From Quillaja saponaria (lineage: Eukaryota > Streptophyta > Magnoliopsida > Fabales > Quillajaceae): a DNA stretch of 64,000 bases. The notes under the pieces are model-generated. The model was not told the origin of the DNA. It was given only the letters and a program-made list of their open reading frames with translations, and searched no databases. Location of the stretch: contig CM055613.1 of the NCBI GenBank assembly GCA_029379385.1, positions 24,029,652 to 24,093,651 on the forward strand, in the 5' to 3' direction. Below, one piece after another: positions 5,640-42,560 of this stretch (positions are counted from its first letter, which is position 1; every line of letters starts with the position of its first letter). Made by a program: the position numbers and the translations under genes.

Positions 5640-6571
5640 GCTCATGAGATTAAATAAGCTATTCATAAGATGAAGAATGATAAGGCAATGGGTCTGGATG
5701 ATATCCCTATAGAAGTTTAGAGATGTCTAGAAGATATGGGTGTAAATTGGCTTATAAATCTTTTTAACAAGATTTTAGTGACCTAAGAAGATGCCCGATG
5801 AATAGGAGAAATAATACGTTGATCCTTATTTATAAAAATAAAGGAGACATTCAAAGTTGTACAAAGTATTGAGGAATAGAACTTACAAGTCATACAATAA
5901 AGCCATGGGAAAGAATGATTGAGTAAAGGCTTAGGAATAAGACTCTAGTTTCTGAGAATCAATTTGGTTTTATGCCAGGATGATCTACAATGGAGGCTAT
6001 TTTCTTACTTAGGAGACTAATGGAGAAATATAGAGAAAAGAAAAAGGATCTTCACATGACCTTTATTAATCTAGAAAAGGCATATAATAGGGTGTCGAGA
6101 CAAGTTTTGTGGTGGGTTCTCAAGAAGAAGAAGGTTCCAACTAAACATGTAGAAGTTGTTAAAGATATGTATGAAGGAGTAATGATTAGGGTGCAGACTG
6201 TAAATGGTCTGACTCGAGAGTTTCTGATCACGAATGGTGCTCACCAAGGTTCATCTTTAAGCCCCTACCTATTTTCTTTAGTCATGGATGAACTTACATA
6301 TGCTATTCAGGATAGGGCTCCGTGGTGTATGTTGTTTGCCGATGATATCATGTTGGTAGATGAAACTAGAGACAATTTAAACTCCAAACTAGAATTGCAG
6401 AAGAACGCGTTAGAATCTAAAGGTCTTAGGTTAAGTCGGACAAAAACCGAGTATCTAGAATGCGATTTCAGTGACACTAGAGGAGGCCCGACTGAAATAA
6501 CTATGGATGGCCATGCAATCCCTACAAAAGATGTGTTTAAGTATTTAGGTAAATTTATACAAAAAAAATGA
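5640..6571 (+). pseudogene. RTE reverse transcriptase
   Basis: This enzyme copies the element RNA at the target nick. Early blocks are KMKNDKAMGLDDIPIEV near 5670, then LINLFNKIL near 5755, then the ENQFGF region near 5957. From 5990 a 193-codon open segment carries FINLEKAYNRVSR, HQGSSLSPYLFSLVMDEL and the active-site motif LFADDIMLV near 6331. It ends near 6571 with VFKYLGKFI, the RTE thumb start. The catalytic aspartates are intact, but the 5' part has several stops. The open 193-codon segment suggests the insertion is younger than the surrounding LTR remains. Confidence 0.85.
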
Positions 6572-9277: not shown

Positions 9278-10699
9278 TGACATGGAGTTTACAAACGTAA
9301 ACGCACATATCGTCTTCAAGTAATAAAGTGATAAGTAGAGATCATTCCCAAGAGGAGTTTTTCAAATATTATGCTAAGTACTAAAATTAGCAATTCCAAT
9401 CTTATTCAAACGGTTGAATTTTGGGTAATGAACTAATTATAAACTTAAAGTGAATTAACCCAAGAATAAACTGGAGATAAACCTAGAATTACAGCTTCCT
9501 TCAACATTTCACTTGAATTATATTATCTTGTCTTGGTTAGTTATTGGCAAAAAATTATTAACCTAGGGTTCTTAATCAATTATAAACATATTCCTATGTC
9601 TTATAATAATATCTCAATTAATTAATTCACTATATTCCTATGTGAATTATTAAACAAGTCATTAAGATTGGATTTAATTTGGCTACACAAGGCATATAAG
9701 TATATTCCTATCTTATACACAAATCAAACTTAACAATATGCGTTGAATTCAATCAAGTGCTAATTAATTCAAGGCAAACCTAACTTACTTTTCCAAGTAA
9801 CTTTCCTAATTCAATCTAAAATATGGCCAATCAATTGGAAGCATTAAGCATGATGAACTAAATAAATCATATGTCAAAACTTAAGCAATCAATACATAAC
9901 ATAATATCAAGCTACATGTTGAGTTCTAGTTCCAATTCTAGAAAAGAAATTACTCCATGCTACTTATTGTAAACATGGTTTCAAAAATAATAAACATCAA
10001 AGAATACAATGAAAGTAAAGAATGAGTAAAAATAGAGAACGCTACGAAGATTGTCGGTATTCAAGCTTCAATGATCCCTCCTTTTGCTTTCTTACACTCT
10101 TGACAAGCTCTAAAACTCCAAAAAAATCTTTTCTAACTTGTGTCCTTTTAAGTCCTTAAGCTAGTCCCTATTATATAGGCTTAAAAACCTTTAATTTCAC
10201 TTCAATTTGGACTAGAAATAGCGCCAGCACTGTGGCTTCAAAAATTGACGAAATAGGTCCTTGGTAGTGGGCATGGCTCCAGCTTTATGGTACTATGACT
10301 GCCTACCTGGGCTCATCCTGGCACCATGGTGCGAGCCTCTTGGGCAGCTTTTCTTGTCCTATGCATTTTGAACATTTTAGGCTTCCAGTTTGACCTCTAA
10401 TGGGACTCCCTCTTGCATTAGATCTTTAAATGACAACAACTAAGTTAGAATAAACTAGACCTTATATAAAACACCTAATCATAGCCTAAATCAACTAGGA
10501 TTTATCATCCTAATATGATAAGGAATCAACTAGAATTTGACTGAAAACTAAGCAAAAACTAACTAAAACTCCTTTCTTTTGCCCTGACATAATTCAATGA
10601 GCTCTTGCTCTCTACTGCTAATAGGGTCTCGGTTGATTTCCCATATTAAAATAATATGAGTAAAAAGATGTAAAATAACTCTATTTCTAAGACTTATCA
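9278..10699 (-). repeat. Family Y 3' LTR
   Basis: TG at 9278, CA at 10699, 1422 bases. It aligns along its length with 14939-16285, sharing for example CTAGGGTTCTTAATCAATT and GACTTATCA/GAGTTATCA at the end. It carries some extra sequence near 10570-10650 that is absent from the other copy. Confidence 0.9.
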
Positions 10700-13454: not shown

Positions 13455-14824
13455 TTACTTAGGTGGAATTTCAACTTGCTTAGGAAGTTTTTCTACCTTT
13501 TTACCACTTCTTAGAGTGATGGCTTTGTAATGCTCCAAGTTAGTATTCCCCCTTCTTGGATTTGGTTTGGTATCACTAAGTAGAGCACTTTGAGGATAGC
13601 TTGTAATGGCATTGGCTAGCTGGTCTATTTGATTCTTAAGGTTCCTAAGTGACACCACTTGGCTTTGGATTATAGAATCCATCTTGGATATGTATTGTAT
13701 AAATAAATCTTCAATACATGCTTTTTGTCAAGTGCACAAATTTATGCTTGTGATTGAACATCATTTGGATAAGCAGGCTTTGTTTCATTGGATTGCCCTT
13801 GATTACTCCATGAAAAATTTGGGTTATTTTTTCCACCCCGGATTATAGGTGTTGGAGTAAGGGTTATCTTAATGCCTCTTGTAATTACCCAAGTAGTTTG
13901 TTGATTCATGGTTGTTCGAGCATAAATTTCTTGTATGTGCATCCCCAGAAATCCCACAAGTCATGGCTTGACTTCTATTTGGTTGTCCTCTAAGGGTGTC
14001 AATTTTCTTTGACAAGACAACCACTTGTGCAATCAATGCACTAATGGCATCCAACTCATGAATTCTAGCCACTCTTCTAGTTGACAACCTTTCAGAAGGT
14101 CATTGATAATTATTAGCAGCCATCTCCTTTAATAATTCAAATGCTTTATCGATGAATTTTCCCATTATAGCCCCACTGACAGCTGCATCTATTATTGTCC
14201 TTGTTTGGCTTACTAAACCATTATAGAATGTATGGAATTGTAGCCACTTTGGTAGGATATGGTGAGGACATCTTCTAAGTAGCTTCTTAGATCTTTCCCA
14301 TGCTTCATAGAGAGACTCTAACTCAAGTTGCATGAATGAAGTGATTACGTTCTGCAACTTGGCTGTTTTGGTCAGTGGAAAGAATTTGGCTAAAAAATTT
14401 TGGGCCAATTCTTCCCACTTTGTAATAGAGTTGTGGGGAAGTGCAAGCAGCCAGCTTGAAAGTGTTCTTAATGCATTTTCCGAAACTCTGTTGAGCTTGA
14501 AAGTGTCACAAAGCTCAAAGAAGCTTATAAGGTAGGAGTTTGGATCATCATTTGGAAATCCAGCAAATTGTACCATCTGGTGAATTATTTGGATTTGGTT
14601 GGGCTTGATTTATAATCATTGTCTTGGATTACTGGCCTTAGTATACTTGAGTGAAGTCTTTGCACAAGAGGGATTGCACAGTCTTGCAAGAACTTAGGTT
14701 CTTGATCATTAGCCATTGATGGAATTTGGCTTGATGCTTGTTGATTCTCCTTTCGAAGCTTTTGATATGTCCTATTGATCTCTGGATTGAAAGGAACAAG
14801 CTCTAAGCTTTGAGTTCTTTGCAT
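13455..14824 (-). pseudogene. Family Y gag
   Basis: Structural Gag of an Athila/Tat-type element. It starts near 14824 (MQRTQSLELVPFNPEI). The best domain is at 14100-14576: MVQFAGFPNDDPNSYLISFF, LPHNSITKWEELAQNFLAKF, LYEAWERSKKLLRRCPHH and FYNGLVSQTRTIIDAA. Downstream are the linker and nucleocapsid-like parts (MSTRRVARIHELDA, ITLRSGKKVEKLP). It is broken into at least five frames. A missing stretch after NALRTLSSW suggests a small internal deletion. Confidence 0.85.
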
Positions 14825-14938: not shown

Positions 14939-16285
14939 TGACATGGATTTTACAAACAAAGCGTGTGGATCATTCTCAAGTAATAAAGTGATAAGTAAAG
15001 ATCATTCCCACGAGGAGCTTTTCAAATATTATGCTAGGTATTAAAATTAGCAATTTCAATCTTATTCAAACAGTTGAATTTTGGGTAGATTATGAACTAA
15101 TTATAAACTAAAAGCGAATTAACACAAGAATAAACTAGAGATAAACCTCAAATTACAACTTCCCTCAACACTTCACTTGAATTATATTATCTTGTCTTGC
15201 TTAGTTATGGAAAATAATTATTAACCTAGGGTTCTTAATCAATTATAAGCATATTCCTTTGTCTTATAATAATATCTTAATTAATTCATTCATTATATTC
15301 CTATGTGAATTAAGTTAAACAAGTCATTAAGATTGGACCTAATATAGGCTACACAAGACATATAGGTATATTCCTATCCTATACACAAATTAAACTCAAC
15401 AATATGTGTTGAATTCAATCAAGTGCTAATTCATTCAAGGCTAACAAAACTTACTTTCCAAGTAAGTTTTTCTAATTCAATCTAAAAGATGGTCATTTGA
15501 ATCATTAAGCATAGAATGAACTAAATAAATAGTATGTCAAAACCTAAGCATTCCATACATAACATAATATCAAGCTACATGTTATGTTCTAGTTGCAATT
15601 CTAGAAAGGAAACTACTACATGTTGCTTAGTGTAAACATGGTTTCAACAATAATAAACATCAAAGAATACAATGAAAGTAAAGAAGAAGTAGAAATAGAG
15701 AAAGCTATGAAGATTGTTGGTATTCAAGCTTCAATAATGTTTGCTTCTCTTGCTTCCTTGACAAGCTCTAAAACTTCAGAAAATCTTTGCTAACTTATCT
15801 CCTCTTAAGTCCTTAAGCTAGTCCTTCTTTTATAGGCTTAAAAACCCTTAATTTCACTTCAATTTGACTACAAATCGTGCTAGTAGCACGACTTTAAAAA
15901 TTGACAAAACAGGGCCATATCAGTGGGCATGGCACAACGACATTAGCTTTCTGGTGCCACGGCACCCACCTAGGCTCATCCTGGTGCCTACGCTCCAGCC
16001 TTCTGGGCAACTCTCCTTGTCCTGCGCGTTTTGAACAGTTTGACCTCGGATGTGACTCATTCTTGTATTAGACATTCAAAACACACTAACTAAGTTAGAA
16101 TAAACTAGAGCTTATGTAAAACACCTAATAATATGCTAAATAAACTAGGATTCATTATCCTAATATGATAACGACTCAGCTAGGATTAGACTAAAAACTA
16201 AGCAAAAATCAACTAAAACTCTAGAACATAGCTAAAACAATATGAGTATAAGGATGTAAAATAACTCTATTTCCAAGAGTTATCA
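14939..16285 (-). repeat. Family Y 5' LTR
   Basis: TG at 14939, CA at 16285, 1347 bases. It pairs with 9278-10699 and is next to the primer site, so it is the 5' LTR on the minus strand. Confidence 0.9.
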
Positions 16286-16363: not shown

Positions 16364-17629
16364 TTGACCCATGCTTATCTTTTACTCATCCTTTAGTAAA
16401 ACTAAAGCTAACAGTTTATCTCACCCTTCTAACTTTCTAAAGGTGTTAGAGAATGCATAAATCAAAAACAAAGAACATAACTAAGAATTCTAAGAATTGT
16501 AAAATATCATGAACAAATTTCCCTTGAACAAACTCAATAAGATAACACCATTGAAAATCAAACAGGCTATAAAATAATAGATTCTAACATGGCAATCTCT
16601 CCAATTCTCAAGTGTTCCAGGGATAAGAATTTGCACTCTGATGCATTTAGTAATAATGCACTACCATAGACTTGCTTATCCATCTAAACTCCACTACTTA
16701 GATTTTATGCAACATAAATCAGAAGGTCTTTCACCTGGTTGTAATAGAGTCAGGGACATGGTATGAAACAAAATGTAAAGAAAAATGTAAAACACAAAAG
16801 AAATTAATAAAGCAATAAAAACTTAAACTTGAGCACATAAACATGTAAAACCCATAAATAACACTTTGACACTTTCACAAAATATCTAGCACTTCACTTT
16901 CTTATTATTATTATTTTTTTCATCACTTTGAATGCTGCATCTTTCTTTCACTTTTTTAATTTTTTGAATAAAACAAAAACATTCAAAGTAAATAATGAAA
17001 AGAAACATGAAAATCCATGCTCATGTTTCCCTCTACTTTCCTATTTTTCCTTTATAACTCCAAAAGTACCCATCAACCCATTCTTTAATCGCTTCACTAA
17101 TTCTAAGGTAGGGTAAAATATACAATCGTTAAGGTTGAGGTTCATATAATGGGTTAACCAACACAAAGAATAATTAAGCTCAAAAGGGCTCACTTAAAAT
17201 AAAAATTTGTTGGGTTGGTTGTTTAGGTTTAAAGTGTGTACTTCCTATTGCCTTAATCATTTTCATGCATTCATATGAATTAATATAGTCTCAATAAGAT
17301 TTAAAGCAAGTTCTAGAGCTACATAATCATATAATGAATATCTCAACAAGAAAATTATAGATTGACATCTAAGATTCAATCTTAGGCTCAAAAATTCACA
17401 TGGTAAAATGTCTACCAAAACTAGCTTGCTATCCTTCCTATTTCAATCACCTATGTGAATCTTGTCTAGGCTGCAAGTTAATTCAATTCAATCCACCTAT
17501 GCCTCTTTTCAAACTCAGTCTAGTTCTTGCTCATAACATATATATTCTCATAAACCCTTGGAAAGAACCTATAAACACACTTTCTAACCTAAAAATCGAA
17601 AAGAAAAGCCTAAATCCTCCCCTCCGTAC
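16364..17629 (-). other. Family X 3' non-coding region
   Basis: Non-coding sequence between integrase and the 3' LTR of the minus-strand family X element. The only open frames are short and unlike known proteins. A G-rich segment on the minus strand near 17605-17625 occupies the same place as the poly-G tract of element W. Confidence 0.6.
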
Positions 17630-19126
17630 TTAATCCTTACATTGTCCCTTACGTAAGACTAAAATGCAAATAATTGTAACTAAAAATAAAAGCATGCATA
17701 AAATTAAAAAGAAAGGGAAAAGAAATTCAAATATGATTTCATGGCAAGTTTGCCACCATTGGATTACCTTCCAAGCATCGCATTTGTTTAATGTCGTTCT
17801 CCTGACTTTGAAACTTTTCTCAATCAGCATAGGATGGATCATCCAACACCACCTCCACCACATTGTACACTTGAAATCCGTCATAATAAGGCTTAAGTTA
17901 ATGGCCATTCACCTTGAACACTTCGTTCGTAAATAAACTTTAATCTCAACTGCATCACAGGGAAAAACATTAGTAACAACAAAAGGACCAACCTAACGAG
18001 AATGCAACTTACCTGGAAATAACTTAAGCCTTGAATAATATAGAACAACTTTTTGTCTAAAATCAAAGGTTTTTCAATAAATCATCTTATCATGAAAGGC
18101 TTTTTGTTTTCTCCTTGTAAATCATTGAATTCTTGTAGGCATCATTGCAAATTTTCTCAAGCTCTTACAATTGTAACTTCGTTTGAATCACCAGCTTCTT
18201 CCAAGCTTATGTTGCATTGATTAATTGCCTAAAAAACTTTGTGCTCTATTTTCACGATAAGAAGACAAGATTTTCCAAAAACTAATCAATAGGGAAACAT
18301 CCCTATAATGCATCTGTAAGCTATCTTATACGCCAATAATGCATCATCAAGAGTCAAGCTCCAATCCTTCTAGTTTGGATGAACCATCTTCTCTAGAATG
18401 GACTGGACTTCTTGGTTGGAAACCTCAGCTTGGTCATTTGTTTGTGGGTGATAGGCAGATGATAGTTTGTGAGTAACATGATATTTCTTCAACAACACTT
18501 CCACCATTCGGTTGAAAAAATGGGTGCCTCTATCACTAATTAATTACCTCAAATGCCATATATATTGAGAGTATGAGATTTGCCAAGAATAATATAAATA
18601 TTGCCAAAAGAAGAAGGAAATGGTCCTTTGAAATCAATGCCCTAAACATCAAAAATTTCATACACAAGTATAAGAGTTTATGGCATTTGATTTCTATAAG
18701 AGAAATTACATATCCTTTGGCAATGTTTGTATCTCTTACAAAAATGGTAAGCATTATGACAAAGTGAAGGCTAATAAAATCCACTTTCCATTACCTTTTC
18801 GGTTGTTCTTCTTGTCTAAAGTGTCCTCTATATGTATAAGAATGATAGAATGTGAGAATAGAATGAATTTTAAAAATTAGGCACTCATCTTCTTATCACT
18901 TGAACGGAACAGTATTTCCATAAATATGGCTCTTCCCACACATAGTACTTAGCATCGCTCTTGAGTTTATCCTTTTGAGTCCTTGATAAGTTACTCGGCA
19001 CCGTTTTAGTGACCAAGTAGTTAACCATATCAGCATACCAAGGTAAGTTAAACTCAAGCACAAACAATTATTCATCGGGAAAGAAGTCCTTCAATAAAAA
19101 GTTATCCTCCTATTGAACCAATTGAC
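17630..19126 (-). pseudogene. Family X gypsy integrase
   Basis: Integrase inserts the element cDNA. From 19126 down the sequence reads NGQLVQ, DFFPDE, LPWYADMVNYLVTKTVPSNL, KYYVWEEPYLWKYC and VIRRCVP, the region leading into the integrase zinc finger. It continues with SGFYWPSL-like, KRYKHCQRI-like and GIDFKGPFPSSFGN segments. The C-terminal chromatin-side end (EVFKVNGH, LKPYYDGF) is near 17880-17935 and CLEGNP is near 17750-17770. Stops and frameshifts are frequent. The coding region is cut at 19126 by a CACTA element and its upstream neighbour resumes at 37819. Confidence 0.82.
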
Positions 19127-19362
19127 CATTACAAGAAATGACATTATTTATGTATGCCCAGTCCAGACATAGGAAGGTCATAATACACATGTAGATACTC
19201 ATTTACGTCTACTCCCAGATGTAGATAAACAGATGTAATAATCTGCGTCTATTTTTTTTTTTTTTTTTGCATTTGCGAGGTAGATGCAATTTGTAGACGC
19301 CTATAATTGTTTGTCACGTATTCAAGTTTGGCCTTCAGACACTGAAACACAAACACATATAG

Positions 19363-19680
19363 CACAACAAGAAAAACCAGTATCAGTGTCCACAATATGG
19401 ACGCTAATAATACAAAAGTGGATGCAAAGACTCGTCAGCATTGCTGATAATATTATTAGTGCCCATGTGGATGCTAAAAGTATCAGCGACCAGCTTTTAG
19501 CATCCTGCAATGTAGATGCTGATAAGAAATGCTTATAAGCTTGTAGCATTATCAACGTTCACTTGGTGAAAACTAAAAAAGGGATACTGATAGTATCAGT
19601 ATCCACATAATGGAAGCTGATAGGTGGAGATTTTTCTCATCTATCAGTGTCCACATGTAGCGGACACTAATAGTTCTGTA
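19363..19680. repeat. C2 left subterminal repeat array
   Basis: Repeated direct and inverted copies of a motif close to ATCAGCGTCCAC / GTGGATGCTGAT, for example AGTATCAGTGTCCAC near 19380 and GTGGATGCTAAAAGTATCAG near 19467-19490. In En/Spm-like elements such arrays bind the DNA-binding protein that brings the ends together. Confidence 0.7.
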
Positions 19681-20152
19681 TTTTTAAATTTTTTTAGTTT
19701 TTATTTATGATATACCTAATAAATAACAAATCATTTTACAAAATTAATACTACAATAAAAATAATCATTTGCTAATCATTGAAAGTTCAAAACATTAACA
19801 AATCATTCAAGGTACAAAACATCAACAATATATATAAAAGGAGGCAAAAGAACTTATAAAACCAATATATTAGTTATTATAGGTAATTGAATGAGCTAAA
19901 AATTCCTATACGCATTAGGTAATAGAAAGAAAAAAAAAAATGATGAGCATCTAATATCCCACACCACGAGGCTAGAATTTGGATGAATGAACATAGAAAC
20001 CATCACATAGCAAGATATAGATCACAAATTATTCTTTTTCTCTTGGTTGCAGCTCCGAGTGTTAACAATGGTCGAATGCCCCGTTTAGTACTAAAACACA
20101 TCCCATGAAGAATGCTAAACATAATCACCATCTTTGTGAATTTTGAACGAAA

Positions 20153-20413
20153 TCATTGTCCTTTAGCATTTGCCAATCTTGAAGGTAACCATTGACACTG
20201 CTCAGCCCATTGTTTGCCGAGTGTTGTAGGATTGCAAATCTGAGCCACAACATGTAACTGAACATGTGAAGTTTTTTTTGTAGTCATTGCAGAGGATCCA
20301 AACCTATTGATAGTATCAGGGTGGTCAGTCATTGCTCCCCATTCTCTTAATTGAAATGAAAAAGTGGGTGAGATCCCTCTAACAAACATAACTGCTCTTC
20401 TTCCCCTACTCAC
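20153..20413 (-). CDS. Unrecognised 86-codon frame inside the Pack-CACTA
   Basis: An uninterrupted frame starting MSRGRRAVMFVRGISPTF and containing REWGAMTDHPDTINRFG and LHVVAQICNPTTLGKQW. Composition is balanced (R, W, C, P and D present), unlike the A/T-driven frames around it, so it may be part of a captured exon. It lies downstream of the CIPK piece on the same strand, but it does not look like the CIPK C-terminus. I do not recognise the family. There is no evidence that it is translated. Confidence 0.3.
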   Translation of the reverse strand: MSRGRRAVMFVRGISPTFSFQLREWGAMTDHPDTINRFGSSAMTTKKTSHVQLHVVAQICNPTTLGKQWAEQCQWLPSRLANAKGQ

Positions 20414-20675
20414 ATCTTTGTTGCAGAGATAGCATTAAGGTCTAAGTAAGATGGAATGGGGACAGGTTGTGATTTTTTTATCAATAAAACTTACCATATT
20501 CAAGATGCTGGAATAACATGATTTAATTAATATGGAAACAGGAAATCATGTTGAATTGCTAATTAAGCATTCTAAATTACAGCATACTATATATAATCCA
20601 AGAAAGAGAGTGAGAGGCTAACCTTTTTATTCTGATAAGACTCGGGCATTGGTGTGCCTGCTTTTGAAAACTGAC

Positions 20676-21224
20676 CTTAAGGTATTCCCTAGCATCTCCA
20701 GCTGCTTTATGAATGTCTACCATGAAAAATGTGGGTGCAACTTCAAATATATTTTCAACCAAAAAGAAAAAGGCAAAAAATTGTTTATCATGATATTAAA
20801 AATGAAAATCTTTCAAAGATATAAAACTTACTTCCAGGATAACTAAGAAATGAGAAGTTTTGTTTGCTGAGATACCCTTCTCTCTCTTATGGAATTTCAA
20901 AACAATCGCACTATAGATGAATTTTAAGTATGTTATGCAGCCTTCTTCTCCATTGAAAATGATAAACTATAGTATTAGATTAATGGTGTGTTGTGAGTAA
21001 ACTTAAGAAAAGAAAAAGAAAATGCAATTAGAGCAAAAACTCATTATTATCATAATATTGTCATCGGACCAAAAGCTAAAAGATTTGGACACGAAAGTGA
21101 ATTTTGGGTTGTTTACCTTGTAGTTGTGGATATGAGTCTTGACCATCGACTGTGCCACAACTTCCATGCTTGATAAAACCACCTTTGCTGGTTCTTGTGA
21201 GACGAAGCATGTTTGATATTTCAT
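20676..21224 (-). pseudogene. Captured fragment of a CBL-interacting protein kinase (CIPK), C-terminal region
   Basis: CIPKs are Ser/Thr kinases activated by calcium-sensor CBL proteins. Two pieces on the minus strand correspond to the C-terminal phosphatase-interaction region. The first is 21117-21224: MKYQTCFVSQEPAKVVLSSM, VVAQSM, then HIHNYK with a GTAAAC donor directly after. The second is 20676-20762: VENIFEVAPTFFMVDIHKAA, then GDAREYLK with GTCAGT directly after. About 350 bases of intron-like sequence separate them. The order, spacing and the donor after EY-K fit CIPK genes. The kinase domain and the NAF motif are absent. This is a transposon-borne fragment with no complete function. 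Confidence 0.75.
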
Positions 21225-21724
21225 AGTCTTGGAAGGAGATTCAATATTCTATGAGAAACAGAATAATCACAAACATATAAAACCAAAAAACTAAATAAAA
21301 TTTCCCTATATTAAGAGAGGAAAAAAAGAAAAAGAAAAAAAAATCTGTGATATAAATGGGATGTTAAATTATATGAGTTTATGACAATCTTAATGTAACT
21401 TAGTAAAGATTAGTAGCTTCAATCCTACTAAGCTTCCTCAGAGAAATATATAAACAATATGGGATACAACTGACTATTGAAGCTATGATTTTTGAGCAAG
21501 TAAATGCTACATATTTAAAATGAAAGGAATGTCATTATAAATACCTGGTTATGATCAAATATTAATGCAATTTATATCTTGAGACAAAATTATCAAGTCA
21601 AATGCATTAAGAATTAAAGGTCGTGTCTTCATTCCTATATTGCTCATCAGCCCTATGTTCCTACAGCCAAAAAGTTTTTTTTTTTCTTCTTAAAAAAGAG
21701 CAGCATTTTTTTTTCTTCCAGCAG

Positions 21725-22650
21725 TTCTTGTGAATTGTATGTCCACAAGGCATGACAACAACGTCATTTCTTAACTTGAACAAATGCTGCAAAGAACCAG
21801 TTTTAATGTGCTTGAAGTCAGCTACCAGTAATTCAATGAGCTGGTACACGATAAAAAATAAATAGGTCGAAAATACAGGATGCATGTTCAATATTTAGTT
21901 ATGTACCTCAAAACAAATAGGATAATCATGATGCATTGCTTTTTCCAGCTTTTTCCACACAAGGGTGACTATTTTTAGCAAAGTTAAGTAGTAGCAACCT
22001 ACAACAAGATCACATGGGTAATCATAAACAAATTCAACAATGACAACCATCAGAACCATCAGAAAAAGCTCAAAAATTTCTAGCATAGAGTGGGAGATTG
22101 CTGCTTACCACACTTGTAGCAATGGAAGAAATTTTCACGCCCTCCACTTCTGTGATAAGGTACATCACAAAATTAGTCAATTTGAAGTCAGCTACCACAG
22201 TTGATACAATTTTGTCAAACCTGATAGAAGATATGTATTAGGAAACTTGTCAAATTCATTCAGTTTTGATAAAAGTTGTTTGAACAAAGAAGTCAAGAAA
22301 TGAAATTAATTCCTAGTTAATAAAGAATGTTACCAAAGGGAAAGAAAAAGTAAAGAAAAAAAAAATGAAAGTTATCTTCGGCTTGTATATATTTGTTTAA
22401 CCCATAAGAAGATATTAGAAAAATAAATCCCAGCTCACCTCCAGTTCAGTACCATTAAGTGAACATATGACCTACATACATAAAACAACTCATTAGCATA
22501 AAGAAATTCCAAAACCTAGAAATAATTAATTAAGAAAAAAAGGTAATATATTATTGGGTAAATTAGTTCTTAGTGAATGAATCGATCTGTTGGACTTGAT
22601 GGCGAGGAACGACATGTCTATGCCTCTGATCGACATTGATATTATTTTGC
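21725..22650 (-). pseudogene. Captured CHY-type zinc-finger/RING E3 ligase fragment (RCHY1/MIEL1-like)
   Basis: Plant CHY-RING proteins are ubiquitin E3 ligases. At least five pieces occur in gene order on the minus strand. They are NVDQRHRHVVPRHQVQQ (about 22586-22650); VICSLNGTELE (22439-22471, flanked exactly by AG and GT); NCINCG near 22200-22221 followed by SGGRENFFHCYKC (about 22104-22160, then GGTAAG); KAMHHDYPICFE (about 21907-21945, then GTACAT); and RNDVVVMPCGHTIHKNC (about 21725-21795). Intron-exon borders are kept, showing DNA-level capture. Damage includes C-to-N in the VICSLC motif, a stop in place of R before QNCINC, C-to-Y in HHDCPIC, and a frameshift before KAMHH. Zinc-binding sites are lost, so it is non-functional. 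Confidence 0.85.
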
Positions 22651-22803
22651 AGAAAATAATTTACTTATAAGTACCAACATCGTGGAGAGAATGCTGCAAC
22701 ATAAGAATAATGCAAGAAAACACCATGTCTATTTACATTACAAGTTATACATGTAAAAGCTTGCAGTAAGCAAATTTGAACAGATAACTCACTTTGACCT
22801 CAT

Positions 22804-23084
22804 TTTGACAATGGTGCTTTTAAGCTGTGTTCTTGACTAACTCAGCTTCTGTATGTTCCTTATACTGGAAAATTCAGAGTGGTCACTTGACTATGGCTGT
22901 GAATAAGGAAAATTTTCCCATCTCAATGCGTGGCTTTCTTTCTCTTGGTTTTTCAGACTTACCTAGTTTTATTACTAGGCTTGAATATCACTCTGCTTAT
23001 CTGGCTTCAATTTTGGATAAGTTTGAGAATTTGGAATATGATGATTGGGTATTTTGCAACACTTTTGACGAGCTGGAAAGAGAG
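22804..23084 (+). pseudogene. Captured UGT74-type glycosyltransferase exon fragment
   Basis: UGT74 enzymes transfer glucose from UDP-glucose to small acids and alcohols in the cytosol. The frame reads FLTNSASVCSLYWKIQSGHL, then LGFSDLPSFITRLEY and YDDWVFCNTFDELEREV. This is the stretch from the middle of the N-terminal domain to the DWVFCNTFDELE motif. Homology stops at GAG followed by GTAACT, a plausible splice donor. The C-terminal domain with the PSPG donor-binding box is absent. A segment near 23350-23420 (WYYPLKSL, then TVSLYQCW) may be a damaged piece of the next exon. Its strand is opposite to the other captured genes, so it was acquired separately or inverted. Confidence 0.75.
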
Positions 23085-24480
23085 GTAACTGTTATAAACA
23101 CTATCAAGCATCTAAATTTAGCTAGTTAAGCAAGTTTTAGGAATAACTACTTGATCTTTTAGAAGCTAAGCTGCAAATTGGTAAATTTAGTTCTGAATTT
23201 TTTAGCTAAATGAAATAACATATTTGTGAAAAGATAAAAAGGCAACTAGATTGTAGGTTAGAGAGTGAATTCTAATTTCACCTTATTATGCTAGCTTGAC
23301 AAATGCAGCTTGTCAATTTTTTTATCTTCCATGTTCAATCCTGAAGGTGCTTGTTGGGTGGTATTATCCCTTAAAATCCCTCACCAAAGTCCAAAGAACT
23401 GTATCCCTTTATCAATGCTGGAAAAAAAATAAAAAAAAAGCTAAGAAAAAAGGAAAATATTTACCTGAACACAAACTAATCAAAATTTGATAACTAGTGC
23501 CTACAAAGAATTCTTTTGTTTTTTCCATGTAGGCTTATATGTCTTCAATTTTTAAGTGCATTGAAATATTAGTACAACTGAGAATCAACGAAATTGATGG
23601 CATGCAAAGGGTGACAAAAATCTGTAAGTAAGAATTAATGGAGGAATGACCACTAAAATCTTGAATTGAAGCTTTTGGGTGTTTGATAATTTGGGATATA
23701 AAACTTGAATTAGTTTTATATAATAATAAGATTGGGAAATCCTATCTACCAAACAAAAAAATTTTGAGAGAATATTTTGAAATGTAATTACTTTAGAGCA
23801 CACAATCTTGTATATGTGTGCTTTGATAGAGACAGTAAGCTAGTTGGGTCGGTTTAAAGGTCATCAACCCATAAACGGTGGTTGTATGGGTTGGGTACAA
23901 CTTTGTAGGTCAAATGATTATGATAGCAGAATATTCAATAATCAGTACATTCATATTAGCATAATATTTAATAGTGGAGGATAATCACATAATGGAACCT
24001 TCAAACTCACAATTAAATTGGTTTATTTTGAAGTTAATCAAGTAATAAACCGAATATAGTTAAGATTCAGAAACAACATGAACATTTGTAGTAAATAAAG
24101 ATAGAGTACTCGATAACACAAACCACAAACTTGGGCTCTGTGATTCAAAGCAACAATTGATGGGCCAGGAGGAGAGGGGCAAAAATAAGAGAGTTTAAGA
24201 CTTCACCTGTTGAAGCACAGATTAGAAGAATGGGTGAGATGAGAGGGAGGCTTCTGTTTTGACAAGTGCCGACGACCACCGACAAGCAAAGCAACGGTGG
24301 GAGAGAGAGAGAGCACTAAGGAAAGAGCAACGAAGAGAGAACATTAGAGAGATGAGAGCAGAATCTGAAATTTTGAGTGTTTGAAGAGAAAGAAGAAGAC
24401 TTGGGGATTTACTGATGACATGAGTAGGGAATGCTAAAAGTGTTATTTTAGAAAAAAAAATAAAAATTACCTTCGTCCAC
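23085..24480. other. Pack-CACTA right interior
   Basis: No protein recognised beyond the possible UGT second-exon remnant. The part at 24130-24400 is richer in G and A (GAGAGAGAGAGAG at 24301-24313), as in the transcribed-side ends of some CACTA elements. Confidence 0.45.
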
Positions 24481-24707
24481 ATTAATGGACGTTGATAATA
24501 ACAACAACAGGTGATGATACTTTCACAAAAAAGGGCACAAATTCCTTGATTATCAGCATTTGTTTGTAATTATCAATGTACGTTATTTTTTGTTTTTCTA
24601 AAAGCGTCCGTTTAATAACGGGACCAGATAAGTAAATAAAAGAACGCTGCTGTCTATTATCAACGTTCATCGTGTTACGGACATGGATACTATTTTGTCT
24701 TGCAGTG
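24481..24707. repeat. C2 right subterminal repeats and terminal inverted repeat
   Basis: Contains CGTCCACATTAATGGACG near 24474-24491, ATTATCAACGTTCATCG near 24656 and the terminal TTTTGTCTTGCAGTG. These mirror the left-end motif family. Confidence 0.7.
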
Positions 24708-24710
24708 TAA

Positions 24711-25154
24711 GTTTTGTATTTACGGTACAGATGGGAAAAAACAGACATAATTTATTTTTTCGAGTTTGATCTACTGTCTGACGCAAATAGAGAAAATAAT
24801 TTAATTATTTTATTTAAAATTTTAATTTTATTCCTATGAACAGCTGTATAAAAGTATATTTTAAATTTAAATTATAAATTTTATATAAATAAAAAAATAT
24901 TATACAAAAATCATCATAATCATGATAATAATCAAATATACATAAATCTAATAATTATGATAATCTCCTACTTCTAAGTCGTTGTCATCTTAAGCTTGTT
25001 CATAATTCAAACTAAGGTGCGAAAGATTGGATGTAAGTGGTGCAACCTTAAAAAAATCAAAATAAATAAGTTATAAGTTATACTTAACTTAATATGCATT
25101 TATATAAGTTAAAACTCTAACTTGGACATTAAATAAAGCTTTCACAATTTTTTT
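24711..25154. other. Outer CACTA interior
   Basis: A+T-rich sequence between the inner CACTA and the minisatellite. A GTCTGACGCAAATAG segment near 24776 resembles the outer element's subterminal words. No gene seen. Confidence 0.5.
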
Positions 25155-26000
25155 CTTGAAACTAAAAATTTGGCCTAATATCTGAACTGTTAATCCAAAT
25201 GGTTTTCTGTTTCTTTCTATAGCTCTTATTTGTCCCATGATCGTGCCAGTACTCCCATAATCCAAAACAAATTTATTTTTGACTATTTTGTCCTTGAAAC
25301 CCAAACTTACCAAGTTTTTATCTTGAAACTAAAAGTTTGGCCTAATATCCTAACCATTGATCTAAATGGTTTTTCGTTTCTTCCTAAAGGTGTTATTTGT
25401 CCACATAGTGATTCTAGGTACTCTCGAAATTAGAACCAGACTTGTATTTGACCATTTTGCCCCCTTCCCCCGAACCTAAACTTACCAAGATTTTGCCTTG
25501 AAACTAAATGTTTTGCCTAATATCCTAATCCCTGATCCAAATTTCATTTCTTCTTACAGGTATTATTTGTCTCCATGGTCGTGCTGGCACTCCTAGAATC
25601 CGAAACAGACTTATATTTGACTGTTTTACCCCATAAGCCCAAACTTGCTAAGTTTTTGCCTTGAAACTAAACGTTTGGCCTTATATCCTAACCATTGAGG
25701 TTTTCCAGTTCTTTCTACAACTCTCATTTGTCCCTATGGTCATGCCGGTATTCCCAGAATCCAAAATATACTTGTATTTGACCATTTTGCCACTGAACCC
25801 AAACTTGTTAAGTTTTTTCCTTGAAATTAAAAGTTTGACAAAATATCATAACTGTTAATCAAAATAATTTTGCATTTTCTTTCTACAGGTCTTATTCATT
25901 ATATTGGTCCATGCCAGTACTCCTGAAATCTTAGATGAAATTGTTTTTGACAGTTATGCCTTATGAACCCATATTTTCAACGTTTTTACAAGGTTTTTGC
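25155..26000. repeat. Minisatellite, five ~160-175-bp units
   Basis: Five head-to-tail units, each starting CTTGAAACTAAA, at 25155, 25322, 25497, 25660 and 25820. Each contains TTTGGCCTAATATCC, then TTATTTGTCC, then a block like GTGCTGGCACTCCTAGAATC, then GACTATTTTGCC. The units differ by tens of changes. It lies inside the outer CACTA. Confidence 0.9.
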
Positions 26001-26266
26001 ATTTAAACTATAATAAACAAAAACTTTTGCATTATCAAAATAAAATTAAAAGAGTTCATACTTATGATGGTTGAGATGGCAGTGTCAAAGGTGGTGGGAT
26101 ATATCTCACCTCTTTCCAGCTCTCTTCTAACTAACTCATGTATAAACACCATATGCTCTAGAGTGAATCCAAATAAGATGGAGACATGGAAAAAGCTGTC
26201 GTGGAGCTATAAGCAGCGTTAGAAAAAGCTATGAACTCTGCAATTTTGCCCAGTACTTACTAGGAG

Positions 26267-27961
26267 TGTTGGGAAATATTGGTCATGCATCACATGTAAA
26301 CACAGCGAATTAAAAATTTTTCCTAACCAAAAACCTATGTAATCAATTAAAGATATATATATATATATATATATTATGAAAGAAAAAGATTAAAACTAAC
26401 CTCTTGAAGCTATCGTTATGTAACTAGTTTGATTGTTTAGTAGGGAGGCTACGAGTTCCTTCACAAATCATCAAAACGATTCTCCCAATCAAACTCAAAG
26501 TATGACTAATGATTAGTAAGCTATTCAAATGAATAAGTCTTTAATGAAATAGTTCACAGCACTTGATGGTTAAGAACCTTTACCTTTTTCGAAAAAGATT
26601 CCAATAAATCGATTCACCATTAAGATACATGCTAGCTTCCACTTGATTGAATCGATAATGGAGGATTGTTCTTGAAGAAAAACTTCTTTGCTTTAATAAA
26701 GAGGGTCGTGGCTAAGGAAGGAGATTTTCAAAAACTTTTCTTACTCATAATCTCTCACAAGGCCGAATGTCACTTGTACCAATATTGTATCCAAAATTTC
26801 CTTTAGCAACTACATATATAGAGTGACTAGGGCTTAAGGACTTATAATCCTTCCTTGTTTAGGATTTCATTAAATCTAAATCACTTTTAAAGTATGAAAC
26901 CTATTCGGTTCTCCCGTACTTTAGAAATAAATGTAATTCGATACTTCCTAGAAGTATGGTTAAATTAAAACACTTAATTTAACTTTAGTTTTGGTAAACT
27001 AACCAACTTACATTCATAGATTAAGATTGACATCTAGCAATATATCATGACCACCCAAGTAGAAGCAAAGTTAAGATCATTTATCAAACCTTTTAGTGCT
27101 TGGTTATCTTGTAATTCAATCATTTCATCAAACATATCCTGAGATAGACATAAGGCATGGATTCTAGTGTTAACCCTATTTTTGTCCAAATCCATTTGTA
27201 CTGGAAACTAAGTTTACGTTTTATTCCTCAAAGAGATTTAACAAAAAACTTTTTTTAATCTCTTTCACTTTGCAAAGATTCCTTGGAACAAGACAAATTT
27301 GTCCCAAGAGGACATGAGATATTCGTCATTTTTACAAAGGCTGATGAATTCTTTGTTTATCATTCATCTACCTTCATATGCTGCACTACATGTCAAATGA
27401 TCACCCATGCATTATCCTTATTACAATATAAGGAAAATGATATCAAAATATATAGATTCACATATAAGGTAATAAAATGATCTCAAGTCAAATGATCGCT
27501 TACACCACTAATACTTTGAGAACTTCTATTGACACGTGAGTAAAGACTCCATATGATTTCTTGTGTTTTGTTAATTTAGTATCTTTTTCAACTAATAAGC
27601 ACCCATATGTTTGTCTCAATATCTCCATGCTTGTGGTTTATGAGATCACTACTCCCTCTTTCTAAGAGAATAACACAATATATGTTAGTCTTGAAGAATC
27701 ATCAATATCCCTATTCTTGATGATTTATTGACCAGGACTACTTTTAGAATAATACTTTATCTATGTCATATCTCACAATTATGATCGACATCATAATTAT
27801 GCATACACTAATATTATTCTAGGACTTCATATAATGTTGTAATAAATCTCATTTAAACAATATAATAAAGAATGTCTAATTAATATTATTACATACATTA
27901 AATACAAATAAAGTGTCATTATAACCAACCATTGATTGACTCTTGAACACCAATACTTACA
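26267..27961 (-). repeat. Copia 3' LTR
   Basis: Starts TGTTGGGAAATATTGG and ends CAATACTTACA, 1695 bases. AGGAG precedes it as a possible target duplication half. It contains a TA-repeat tract at about 26351-26375. It matches 32446-33888 over most of its length. Confidence 0.85.
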
Positions 27962-36893: not shown

Positions 36894-37335
36894 CACTATA
36901 AGAAAAAGCAATATCAACGTCAGCTAAAAGTGGAGGCTAATAATGCTATTGTGGATGCTAATACTTATCAGCGTCCACAAGTGGATGCTGATATTGTGGC
37001 CTATGATAATATTATTAGCGTCCACTTATTAGAAGCAGAAAAGTGGATGCTAATAGTATAAACGTCCACCTGATAGAAGCTAATAAGTGAAACCTAATAT
37101 GTAGAGATTTTTCTCATATATCAGCATCCTCTTATTGCGGACACTAATAATTTTATATTTTTAATCTTTTATGGTATACTTGATAAATAATAAATTTTTC
37201 ATAAAATTGATACAACAATAGAGAAAAAAAAAGATCATTTTCTAAGCATTGAAAGTTTAAAATATTAACAAATCATTTAAAATATAAAACATCAACGATA
37301 TATAAAAATATTTAAGTTTTTAATCATCGGAAGAA
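36894..37335 (+). mobile_element. Second copy of the C2 CACTA left end
   Basis: CACTATAAGAAAAAGC followed by subterminal repeats, then sequence matching 19560-19850 (GGAGATTTTTCTCAT, then CGGACACTAATA, then TTGAAAGTTCAAAACATTAAC-type words). At 36966-36993 TATCAGCGTCCAC and its inverse form a near-perfect hairpin. No matching right end is apparent; the copy fades at about 37335. It is therefore a truncated relative of the Pack-CACTA. Confidence 0.7.
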
Positions 37336-37818
37336 ATTGGGAAATGGTTTGGATGGAGAAAGTTAATTTGTAAAGGGAGGGAACGGTCTGTTGTAGAGAA
37401 AAGATAGAGAATGAGAAAGAAAATTAATGAGCTAGATTTCAATTTGGGAAAAAATATATGCTTTCTGCTAGTCCAGAAGCAGATACATTAAGTGACAAAT
37501 GTAAATATACACAATACTAAACAGAATTAAGTTTTATATCAAAATCTCCAACTACAGATGCAAATATTTTAAATGGTAGATGCTGATAAATAAACACAGA
37601 AACAAATATAGTCACAAAATATGGAAAAAAAAATTAATCAGTTTTTACATCTTTTTTAATAGTATTAGCATCTTAGGTATAATTTTTTTTTAAATTATCT
37701 GCGTTTACAAATATACAGATTCAAAAAATAAGATTACAAATGCATATAGTACTTATTTGCGTTTTTTTGTTCTACGTTTGTAGTATAGTAGATGAAAATA
37801 TGATAATTTCTTGTAGTG
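37336..37818. other. Outer CACTA right subterminal region and terminal repeat
   Basis: Contains repeated words such as GATGCAAATATTTTAAATGG, CTGCGTTTACAAATATACAG and TTTGCGTTTTTTTG, and ends ATTTCTTGTAGTG at 37818. It mirrors the style of the left end at 19127-19360 (GTAGATGC, CTGCGTCTA). Confidence 0.65.
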
Positions 37819-38092
37819 GTCTTAGATGATTCGCAACTAGATCTTCAACGTCCTTTCTATCTTTGATCTCCTAGTTGAATTGTTGAATTAAGAGGATCAA
37901 TCTAATCAGCAATGTCTTTGAATCCTTCTTTGTTAGCAAGTACTGAAGAGCAACTGTCAAGGCATAATTACTGACATCACACATGATTTCAAAGGGCAAT
38001 CCAAATTGTGTGGTTAGATCACTTGTGCCTACTTTAAGAGTTCTTTCAGCTTGTTAAAGGCTTCCTTGTATTCATCATTGATGAGTCTTCAA
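37819..38092 (-). pseudogene. Family X RNase H remnant
   Basis: Reads on the minus strand DEYKEAFNKLKELL, LPFEIMCDVSNYAL, then QYLLTKKDSK and EIKDRKDVEDLVANHL. The last segment is the hinge that leads in family members to the integrase region preserved at 19126. The core of RNase H between SNYAL and QYLL is missing, an internal deletion. The fragment is bounded on the left by the CACTA end and on the right by the family W LTR. Confidence 0.8.
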
Positions 38093-39796
38093 TGTTCACT
38101 AAATTAAAACCTAATTAACGATATTTGTAGTATAATAAGTAGGGTATTGATCTCACAGAGAAACAATTAAGTTAATCAATTTTAAGTAGTTCTTATTTAA
38201 TTAAATTGAACCAAAACAAAAGAACACAACAAGTTCAAGTATAAATCCTAAGCTGAATATTATAATGAGCAATAAAAGTAAATCAAACTAATGCAAGAAA
38301 ATATAAAACAAAACAGATGCATAAAAATGAATAGAGTTCTAAAATAGGATGTGATGATAATATGCTATAAATACGCAAACTAACTAATATGCACTCAAAA
38401 TAGCAAAGTAAATAAATGGGATGTTGATCTTTGATCTAAATTAAATTAAAATAGCTAAGCAAGCAAGAAAAACAAGAGAATTAAATTCTAGATGTAAAAA
38501 AACAATTTTTGGTAGAAACTTACTAAACTAAGCAAACAATCGAAGATTTGTAAAACTCAACTACAAAGAAGTTTTAGCCAAGATTCATGAGCTATTAATC
38601 ATTGAAAACAAAACAAATATCGATTTGAAAATACACATATGCATGCAAATCAACCATGGAAAAAAGTCTTTCCTACCTATTCTTACCTCTTTGTTAATTA
38701 GGTCAAGCAGAATAACTAACACTAATCACATAATAACCCTCATCAAGCGTTATAAATTTAATTACATGAAAGCATTACGAACTGGATAGGTGCAATTGAT
38801 TCTAAACAATTAACACACAAGCAGCATTAACTTAGTTTAGATCAAAATTTTCAAGCAACACTCAAATAAACTCAGATTTAATTGAAGTGCTACTTTTACT
38901 ACTCATGTTAATTAACCATGCAAATACATTAATCAATTAACTAGTATTAGATTATATGTATCAATTTATCATGTGTACATCACGGGTTCGAGGCGTGGAA
39001 ACAGCCTCTTTGCAAAAATGTAAGGGAAAGGCTGCGTACATGTGCGCCCACCCTCCCCCTACCCCCGCAATAGCCGGGGAGCACTTTGTGCACCGGGTGA
39101 GCCCTTTTTTACATCATAACAAACTAAAACACATAATTATTAAGCAATTAAACAAGAAAAACATTAATACTTGTATTTATGTATAACATTAGATTTCCTC
39201 TTATAAACAGATTCTTATAGTAGTTTTATAAGTCAAGGTTACTTATCTCTTGTAATTGAACAAAAACTTAAGTTAGCATCATCATTAATTGAAAAGAAAA
39301 TACTATGTTTATTGTTGAAATTTTGAGAGAAGAAGAAGAAAAGTGCATGTAAAGGTACTTCTCAATCAGATCTATACTCCCCTATTTATAGAATATAGGG
39401 GGTGGCAAGGACTTCTAATCAAGAATGAGTCTTTTCCTACTTAATCAAATTTGCACTTCCTATTCTATCCAAAATTTGAATATTCTAATTTGATCTTGTG
39501 ATCTTCTTTCAATTCTAATCTCAATAAAATTCCTGCTCAAAGTTGGATTCCTTATGTAGAAATCCTTCATTGCCACTAGGATTCCTAGTCCAATTAGGAT
39601 TTGCACATCATCAACTTATAGATTTGTCTCAATGTGCGCATTCTAGTCTTTAACTCCATTTAGCTCAATTTTACTCTTTATGTCTACAAAGCATAGTTTT
39701 ACACAAAACAAGATAAGTAAACTAAAGTAAGACATAAAATATGCACAAAAGACTAAGAATAAGATACTAAAAGGATAGAATAATATGAGTGTATCA
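38093..39796 (-). repeat. Family W gypsy 3' LTR
   Basis: Starts TGTTCACTAAATTAAAACC and ends GAGTGTATCA, 1704 bases including a SINE insertion. It is followed directly by a polypurine tract and, further on, integrase, so it is the 3' LTR of a minus-strand element. The matching 5' LTR is not in the window. Confidence 0.8.
38983..39109 (+). mobile_element. Au-type SINE, 5' truncated
   Basis: A short interspersed element derived from a tRNA-like RNA. CGGGTTCGAGG (the B box of the internal pol III promoter), GGAAACAGCCTCTTTGC, AAGGCTGCGTACA, CCCCGCAATAGCC and GTGCACCGGGTG occur in the order of plant Au SINEs, ending CCCTTTTTT. The A box is missing. Flanking TACATCA at 38976-38982 and 39110-39116 is a perfect 7-base target duplication, so the 5' truncation happened at insertion. 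It lies within the family W LTR. Confidence 0.85.
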
Positions 39797-39815
39797 AATT
39801 CCCCCACACTTAGTA
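39797..39815 (-). other. Family W polypurine tract
   Basis: AATTCCCCCACACTTAGTA. On the minus strand it reads AAGTGTGGGGGAATT directly before TGATACAC, a textbook plant gypsy polypurine tract and LTR start. Confidence 0.9.
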
Positions 39816-41380
39816 CCTGCACGTCCTTAAGCAAGGAAAAGAAAAGACAAAGTTGAAACTAACAATGTTCAAAATCAAAAACTGAAAAATTGGAAAAGAA
39901 ATGAAACCTAAGAATTAGAAACTAAAAAGCAAATGCTAAATAAAGACCTTATAAGCACTCAATTCCACTTTTAATCTCCCAACACTCTCAAAGATTATAA
40001 GCATTATAAGCAAGAATATTTTCATGAATTTGAATACTTAACAATCTTAGAACCCTTCTTAGTTTAAAAACTTAAATGAAATGCATGTCATACCAAAATA
40101 ACAGGTCCTCTCATTGATATACATTCTAACACTCAATTGTTTATGGCTTAAAGTATTTAAACTCAAATTCAATCAATGTTATGATCTACCATAAGCTTGA
40201 TCTTCAATCTCATCTCCACTGCCAAAGTATCACATGCATAACATGAATCAAAAGGTCTTTATTTATGGTTGTAATGGGTCTATGCTAAAAGGGTAGGTAA
40301 GAAAAAGGTAAAGAAGAAGTTAAAAACCAAAGAAACTAGTAGACCATATAAACTTAATGTTCACAAATTCATCATAGGAAATTAAGCTCAAATACCGAGC
40401 TTCCTTTGATTTTCAAGTTCCCATAACATTATATTATTTAAAAATAAAGGAAACACTTTCTTTCTTCCTTTTCCACCTTATACACATTTGGTCATCACTT
40501 TTTCTTTTCTTTTCTTTTTTCATAAACAACTTGGAATTGTTCTTCTTTTTTCTTCATAACCGAATGGTACAATTCACAATCAATTAGCATTATTTAACAA
40601 CTTTTCTCATGAATTCCAATCATAACCCAATGTTCATAATAATGAGCACATGCTCTACTATTGCTTGGCTAGGTAAAAAGGGAACATATGAAAGGTTTAG
40701 GTTCACAAACATAGGTTAAAAAAGAAGAAGCATAAATAAGCTCAAAATTGGCTCACTAGCGAATCATCATGAATAAGGCTGGCTTGTTTTTGGCTCAATT
40801 GATTAAAAATCCTAAGTGCCTTTGTCACTTTCATGTATACATGTAATTTAAATGTAGTCTTAACAAGATATGAAGCAAGTTCTAAAGATGCACCACACAT
40901 TGAATGAATAACACACAACAAAGAAGGCATGTTGAATGCTCAAGAGCTCACAAAGGTAAAACAACTACTAAGTCAGCATGGCAAGCTTTCAAAGTTAATC
41001 CTTAGACCAAGTAAGCTCAAAATTGCAAGTTAACTTATTCATTCAGTTTATCTCACTATAATACACATGTTCTCATTAACTCTTAGGAGATCAAAAGACA
41101 AAGCTAAAACACTTAAGGTATTGCATGCAAAAGAAAAAGAAATACACATAAACACTTGAAGTAAAAACAAAACATACCAAAAGCAAAAAGAAACACTAAA
41201 TCCTCCCCCCCCCCCCCTCTCACACACTTAAACACTACCTTGTCTTCAATGTAGACATCAAAGTAAGAAAGAGAAGAAGAAAAATTATGTATGTACTAAA
41301 ATAAAGGACGAAAAGATAAGAGAAAGAGAAAGCGAAAGAGGAAAGCAAATTTGGTTTGCATTTTTCTTTTTTGTTGGGTT
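39816..41380 (-). other. Family W 3' non-coding region
   Basis: No coding frame. Contains a run of 13 C at 41205-41217 (poly-G on the element strand) just after the integrase end, and A/T-rich repeats. Confidence 0.6.
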
Positions 41381-42560
41381 ACCTCCCAATCAGCTCCTTT
41401 GTTTAATGTCTTTGGCTCGACTCCATGTTCATCAATCTAATGTAGGTTTGGCCAAGTCAACCTTCTCCATAACCACTTCCTTAAAACCTTCATAGATAGG
41501 TTTCAACCGTTGTCCATTTAGCTTGAACACATGGTTTGTTTCTAAGCTTTGAATTTCAACTGCACCATGAGGAAAGATATTAGTAACAATAAAGGGTCCA
41601 ATCCATCAAGAACGTAACTTACCTAGAAAGAACTTTAATCATGAATGAAACAAGAGAACTTTTAGCCCAATTTGAAATTCTTTTCTCGAAATCATTTTGT
41701 CATGGAATGCCTTAGTCTTTTCCTTGTAAATCCTTGCATTATCATAGGCATCATTCCTTATCTCCTCCAACCTTGTAGTTGCAACTTCTTACGATGTCTA
41801 GCAGCATCTAAGTTTATATTGCATTGCTTAATGGCCCAAAAAGAACGACGCTCAAGTTCTATTGGTAGATAACATAGTTTCCCATAAACTAACCTATATG
41901 GAGACATTCCAATAGGTGATTATATATGCAGTCCTATAAGCCCATAGAGCATCATTCAACCTTAAGCTCCAATCTTTTCTATTAGGTTGCACCGTTCTTT
42001 CAATGATGGATTTGATCTTTCGGTTAGAAATTTCATCTTGGGCACTTGTTTGAGGATGGTAAGTTGTGGAGGTGCATTTAATAACGTTTCAAAGCAAAGC
42101 TTCTATAGATCGATTAAAGGCATTTTATCACGATGAGTTATACTGCCTATCCTCTGGCATCGTTCACATGATTTGCAAAATGTATATGCATCTTTAAACA
42201 ATGTAAGCCAATAAAAATCACAAGTACCTTGTGAGCTATTCTTTTCGCACCAAAATATCCTCTACAAGCATAAGAATGGAAAAAGGTAAGGATAGTACCA
42301 CATTGGGGTACACACCTTCTTATGATTTGGTCAGCACAAAAATTTTATAAATATGGGTCATCCCAAACATAATATTTAGTATCATCTTTAAACTTATTTT
42401 TTTAAGATAACAAACCTGGAGGAAATTCTTTAGTAACTAAAAAGTTAACCAAATCAACATATCATAGCTGAATGTTATACATAGCATACAACTTCTCATT
42501 GGGAAAAGACTCTCTTACAGATTCTATCTCTAACTTGCGTGTTTGACAATCTACTTAAGT
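41381..42560 (-). pseudogene. Family W integrase, heavily decayed
   Basis: Segments on the minus strand are YVDLVNFLVTKEFPPGL, DDTKYYVWDDPYL, CADQIIRRCVP and FHSYACRGYFGAKRIAH near 42200-42480 (zinc-finger region). Later come poorly conserved core segments. Near 41420-41560 is FKLNGQRLKP-like sequence that ends the protein, with GR-PN near 41385. Many frame changes. Confidence 0.75.

Follow-up and report, generated by a model that had tools for sequence, protein, structure and literature searches.

A probable Pack-CACTA element in Quillaja saponaria with broken, nested pieces of host genes

A stretch of 64,000 nucleotides from Quillaja saponaria (GCA_029379385.1, contig CM055613.1, positions 24,029,652 to 24,093,651; hereafter the window) appears to contain, at positions 19363 to 24707, a Pack-CACTA element: a non-autonomous CACTA transposon with broken fragments of three unrelated host genes inside it. 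We give this reading a probability of about 0.85. The genes are read as CIPK8, a CHY-RING E3 ligase and a plant UDP-glycosyltransferase (UGT), and the CIPK8 exons appear to lie inside the CHY-RING piece. A preliminary description of this DNA had proposed a Pack-CACTA with pieces of at least three unrelated genes, and the ends, the subterminal motif and the tblastn matches to the genes all bear this out. The segment 19363-24707 would have transposed as a single unit.

Read from position 19363 the left end is CACAACAAGAAAAACCAGTATCAGTGTCC, and the right end, taken as the reverse complement from position 24707, is CACTGCAAGACAAAATAGTATCCATGTCC; the two are identical at 22 of 29 ungapped positions. 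When opposite-strand pairs of sites beginning with CAC were drawn at random from the window, 4 of 200,000 reached this score. The right tip is an exact CACTG. The ends also share a subterminal motif resembling TATCAGYGTCCAC, which we wrote as TATCA(G/A)(T/C)(G/A)T(C/T)CA(C/T) and scored with up to two mismatches, taking as background the window outside this and a second CACTA-like element (44 of the 77 matches). The motif was derived from the left end, where its 12 matches in 338 bp are therefore circular. The last 287 bp at the right end hold five matches where 0.22 would be expected (P about 3e-6), the left part of the second element holds ten (0.23 expected), and the interior, 19701-24420, is at background with four (3.6 expected). 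Two separate alignments, one of 79 columns (73%) and one of 407 columns (67.6%), relate the left 476 bp to positions 36894-37308, so the left end recurs as the end of an element. The preliminary description had spoken of CACTA-type ends with matching subterminal repeats, as we find, and would have been contradicted by ends that do not recur elsewhere; within the window the left end does recur, and the right end was not found again. The element and its terminal parts are as follows.

19363..24707, unstranded: whole Pack-CACTA-like element, 5,345 bp, from the match of its inverted ends and their common subterminal motif
19363..19391, plus strand: left terminal inverted repeat, CACAACAAG..., CACTA with its fourth base changed
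24679..24707, minus strand: right terminal inverted repeat, CACTGCAAG... on that strand
19363..19838, plus strand: left terminal and subterminal region, common to 36894-37308
24421..24707, minus strand: right subterminal region, five matches to the subterminal motif

The host-gene families were named with a stitched query of 270 residues and, because that query was stitched, tblastn of full-length relatives against the untouched window served as the independent test. The best E values were 1.2e-15 for CHY-RING (P0001), 3.8e-12 for CIPK8 (P0214) and 5e-33 for the glycosyltransferase (P0119), against best values of 0.095, 0.004 and 0.26, respectively, in 20 triplet-shuffled windows. Of 779 candidates, 679 matched the stitched query at an E of 1 or lower. 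A RING, CHY or zinc-ribbon domain of Pfam is present in 118 of the 120 listed, with RZFP34 and MIEL1 of many plants among the named proteins; the remaining two, the glycosyltransferase P0119 of Acacia and the unannotated P0100, align to the UGT piece. When the CIPK part was scored alone, 378 of 387 candidates had E up to 1, and CIPK8 was the usual specific name among the 120 listed. The named matches to these queries come from a wide range of land plants, and none in the listed rows is near-identical. Sequence matches of the stitched query to proteins of solved structure pointed the same way (RCHY1, 2.1e-10 and 9.5e-9; CIPK24, 2.1e-9). In Pfam the stitched query passed for RING (27 bits, cut-off 25.2) and for the zinc ribbon (49.3 bits, cut-off 27), and NAF fell below its cut-off (18.2 against 25 bits). 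The tblastn matches of P0001 lie at 22649-22584, 22471-22436, 22151-22107, 22032-21712, 20661-20620 and 20303-20205, and those of P0214 at 21620-21570, 21227-21114 and 20903-20676. The weak single-exon matches among them rest on collinearity along one strand. The pieces are listed in the order in which they are met from the right end.

22824..23087, plus strand: UDP-glycosyltransferase (UGT74-like) exon piece, residues 127-214 of P0119, ending at a GT donor
22584..22649, minus strand: CHY-RING (RZFP34-like) exon piece, residues 96-117 of P0001, by tblastn
22436..22471, minus strand: CHY-RING exon piece, residues 117-128, GT donor by eye
22107..22151, minus strand: CHY-RING exon piece, residues 168-182 (GGRENFFHCYKC), GT donor
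21903..22001, minus strand: CHY-RING exon piece, residues ~183-209 in two frames, GT donor, limits by eye
21712..21785, minus strand: CHY-RING exon piece, residues ~210-234, the RING half with MPCGHTIHKNC, limits by eye
21546..21658, minus strand: CIPK8 NAF-motif exon (LNAFDLI), residues ~295-331, GT donor
21114..21245, minus strand: CIPK8 exon, residues ~332-371, AG acceptor and GT donor
20827..20888, minus strand: CIPK8 exon, residues ~372-390, GT donor
20676..20755, minus strand: CIPK8 exon, residues ~391-414 (FEVAPTFFMVD..KAAGD)
20621..20663, minus strand: CHY-RING piece after the CIPK8 block, residues 265-278 (GTPMPESYQNKK), GT donor, tblastn E 0.010
20199..20304, minus strand: last CHY-RING exon, residues 278-313, the zinc ribbon in two frames, tblastn E 0.008

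From these matches the CHY-RING piece is identified as a CHY-RING E3 ligase, in agreement with the preliminary description, and more closely as one of the RZFP34 type. Its residues 129-167 are mostly lost, with a remnant at 22223-22195 (E 0.059) that contains a stop, and a zinc ligand has gone where CNDC has become CNDY. For its first 95 residues and for residues 235-264 no convincing counterpart was found in the element. The CIPK piece is identified as the regulatory C-terminal part of CIPK8, and its exon at 20676..20755 is 88% identical to Citrus CIPK8 over 25 residues. The preliminary description had called it a kinase fragment; the CIPK assignment stands, and no convincing match to the kinase domain, or to the last 32 residues, was found in the element. 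The UGT piece is 66% identical to P0119. As a plain open reading frame (ORF) it also matched, among sequences of solved structure, 8ino, 8ind and 8in7 (1.2-1.3e-6), UGT79 (3.5e-4) and UGT74F2 (4.1e-4), and the remaining parts of the UGT had no convincing match in the element. The earlier label of UGT74 was right as to a plant UGT; the best structures are other plant UGTs, and UGT74 itself is plausible, being compatible with the piece and not proved by it. For the absent parts of the three genes the best E values in the element were 0.42 to 3.0.

A fourth captured gene was sought by running Pfam on nine further ORFs that lie within the element or at its margin, and nothing rose above cut-off. 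Two sub-threshold hits, Zn_ribbon_recom at 23269-23487 (E 0.057) and Rost at 19325-19558 (E 0.003), were taken as chance, and the ORF at 20,153-20,434 was rejected as a candidate when a three-frame reading placed it over the CHY-RING zinc-ribbon exon. The Pfam search of the eight fragment pieces and of these nine ORFs found no transposase, a search that a badly decayed copy could escape. As a separate observation, an annotated protein of Punica granatum (P0123, partial, 197 amino acids) has C-terminal exons of CIPK8 joined to PF17919 and PF17917, which we take to be retrotransposon RNase H-like domains. It is perhaps a gene model that extends into a transposon, or else a separate captured piece of CIPK8.

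The arrangement of the pieces suggests how they were acquired. On the minus strand CHY-RING residues 96-234 come first, followed by CIPK8 residues ~295-414, CHY-RING residues 265-313 and finally the element's left terminus; the UGT piece occupies the plus strand, between the CHY-RING piece and the right terminus. The CIPK8 exons therefore sit within the CHY-RING piece, reading in the same direction and occupying the site of about 30 missing codons, implying a nested capture. By eye, GT donors stand in the expected places after nine pieces (CHY-RING 117-128, 168-182, 183-209 and 265-278; CIPK8 exons e1 to e4, with GTCAGT at e4; and the UGT piece) and AG acceptors stand before five, so the captured copies were most likely made from genomic DNA with their introns included. 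Two reading frames are needed in CHY-RING 183-209, in CIPK8 exon e1 and in the last CHY-RING exon.

To move, the element would have relied on an autonomous relative whose transposase, acting in trans, bound its short inverted ends and subterminal repeats. Genomic DNA of the three host genes, introns included, would have been copied in after excision, by template switching or by faulty repair of the gap; the CHY-RING piece would have been acquired, with CIPK8 exons located 3' of the kinase domain coming to replace about 30 of its codons, and the element would have decayed afterwards. Any action that it had would probably be through RNA, either chimeric spliced transcripts or small RNAs, and not through protein. 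The ends, the subterminal repeats, the identities of the genes, their order and strands, the splice-site dinucleotides still present and the broken frames are seen in the sequence; mobilisation in trans, the route and order of capture and the RNA effects are all steps that we infer. Repair-based filling after excision is reportedly a route of capture, an idea attributed to Rubin and Levy. Within the Pack-CACTA reading we consider repair or template switching the most likely route, and favour it to a modest degree.

Its competitor, which would leave the element a Pack-CACTA with a different history, is that two neighbouring CACTA elements were mobilised together with the DNA between them. Capture by fusion of neighbouring insertions is the model described for Pack-CACTA and other Pack-TYPE elements in PMC8903248 (section 9) and PMC13317346, and the related element about 12 kb away at 36894, in the same orientation, fits local insertion. 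Fusion predicts internal ends or terminal sequence, whereas the subterminal motif is at background in the interior and 12-mers of the CACTA-end type are at chance in the window; the internal ends could have been deleted. A single fusion event links neighbouring stretches of DNA and does not readily put CIPK8 exons within a CHY-RING gene, an arrangement that template switching or a second repair event would produce more easily. Because internal transposon ends were not detected we prefer repair or template switching and regard fusion as the unlikelier route, with a minor share of the Pack-CACTA reading. A nested capture in which internal ends are not detected bears on the question of repair versus fusion.

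Several findings weigh against a Pack-CACTA of any origin. At the ends, the left tip is CACAA, one base from CACTA; the 3-bp flanks are TAG on the left and TAA on the right, so the target site duplication is not intact; the CACTA-end 12-mer alone is at chance in the window (11 found, 11.4 expected, at two or fewer mismatches); and the right 608 bp match nothing but themselves in the window at E 0.01. Nothing convincing in 24,708-27,000 resumes the left flank when compared with 37,819-46,000 (best E 0.006, short and among many queries), and for this reason an empty site cannot be shown. Among the gene pieces, none of the eight reached a Pfam cut-off as a single ORF, the RING families at 21712..21785 included; the UGT piece matched no UGT family in Pfam, whether as a single ORF or stitched; the tblastn match of the CIPK8 NAF exon, which spans residues 305-321 of P0214 (the remainder being by eye across a frame break), is weak at E 0.001; and the CHY-RING pieces past the CIPK8 block (E 0.010 and 0.008) are individually weak and based on collinearity.

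The unequal flanks, the right end that is unique in the window and the left flank that does not resume on the right would all suit a patchwork, in which a CACTA left end, fragments of host genes and an unrelated right end came to lie side by side and never moved as a unit. We consider this improbable in view of the match at 22 of 29 positions and the enrichment of the same subterminal motif at both ends; moreover, the left end resembles the right end as closely as it resembles the left end of the second element (also 22 of 29, counted by eye). Unequal 3-bp flanks are usual for an aged insertion. With several exon frames broken, a left tip of CACAA and flanks that differ, the Pack-CACTA element is best seen as an old relic, probably immobile. 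A genuine chimeric gene of the host, or a pair of overlapping pseudogenes, beside transposon ends that are there by chance would account for CHY-RING and CIPK8 exons on one strand with their splice sites kept, and is very improbable given the stop, the several frame breaks, the lost zinc ligand, the start regions of all three genes that were not found in the element and the UGT piece on the opposite strand. As a speculation to which we attach little weight, the Pack-CACTA element may have acted as an exon-swapping cassette in which CIPK8 exons replaced part of CHY-RING, and it might once have made, or a sister copy might yet make, spliced RING-CIPK8 RNAs, with small RNAs from the UGT piece directed against its parent gene.

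The second CACTA-like element lies at 36894-37818, in the same orientation as the Pack-CACTA and about 12 kb from it, and is possibly 925 bp long. Its left 415 bp are related to the left end of the Pack-CACTA; its putative far end, at 37818, reads CACTACAAGAAA on the minus strand; its 3-bp flanks, TTT and GTC, are unequal; and its right half gave no match to the Pack-CACTA right end. Three short matches were set aside: an AT-rich one, at 69% over 77 columns (E 8e-5), between the left region and 24859-24934, which lies just beyond the right end, one of 57 bp between the interior and 47093-47149 (74%, E 8e-4) and one of 24 A-rich bp between the right end and 22357-22380 (E 0.047).

The rest of the window contains other repeats. 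Immediately left of the Pack-CACTA, the 236 bp at 19127-19362 start with CATTACAAGAAA and carry repeats resembling TCTGCGTCTA; they may represent the terminus of another CACTA family that the Pack-CACTA interrupted. No relative of them was found within the window, and the starting 12-mer alone is at chance. The left flank beyond (about 17,600-19,100) matches, piecewise, 41,300-42,500, a stretch that looks Ty3/Gypsy-like by eye, and Pfam named no family in the neighbouring ORFs 42756-43295 and 44685-45197. Near the right end, 25148-25987 contains a 161-bp tandem repeat in about four copies with 73% matches (25148-25852, with self-matches to 25987). Direct repeats of 1.3 kb, about 84% identical, at 9278-10571 and 14939-16221 stand around a Retrotrans_gag ORF (14103-14609, minus strand) and are probably the long terminal repeats of a retrotransposon. 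A protein search with a gag ORF gave 55-60% identity in its three best rows. A large inverted repeat at 7138-8897 matches its own reverse complement at 78% and has relatives at 56649-57865. The segment 44589-46092 is a 0.75-kb tandem duplication, 84% identical and by eye like retrotransposon gag and protease, and 5984-6568 holds a reverse transcriptase ORF (RVT_1, E 2.9e-23) that is LINE-like by eye.

Among the titles and abstract openings listed for Pack-CACTA and gene-capturing CACTA elements, we found none that combines CIPK8, CHY-RING and UGT in one CACTA. The Quillaja element is otherwise ordinary, since a single study (PMC8903248) annotated upwards of 10,000 Pack-TYPE elements in rice and maize. 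Like the Pack-TYPE elements, Pack-CACTA among them, outlined there for Arabidopsis, rice and maize, it is a non-autonomous transposon with terminal inverted repeats that holds host coding DNA; it departs from the fusion model given in the same source in that internal element ends were not detected. CACTA elements of Chenopodium, as presented in the relevant passages of PMC8978399, likewise have CACTA ends, subterminal repeats and captured fragments of host genes, but those fragments lie in the 5' region outside the coding sequence of the elements themselves, and no such coding sequence was detected in the Quillaja element. The closest known system, going by the passages of PMC1947982 cited here, is Tgm-Express1 of soybean, a CACTA with five gene fragments, introns included, and chimeric transcripts. 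The two are of nearly equal size (5,725 and 5,345 bp), and both hold exonic and intronic pieces of unrelated host genes with splice sites kept. They differ in the number of captured genes (five in soybean, three found in Quillaja) and in setting, since Tgm-Express1 lies in intron 2 of F3H and has sequenced chimeric transcripts, whereas the Quillaja element is decayed, holds other genes and is known from DNA alone. The nesting of one gene inside another in Quillaja has no mention in those passages on Tgm-Express1. The Quillaja element is a further, new example of a known gene-shuffling kind of transposon, and would be a clear case of plant cut-and-paste transposons collecting exons from unrelated genes.

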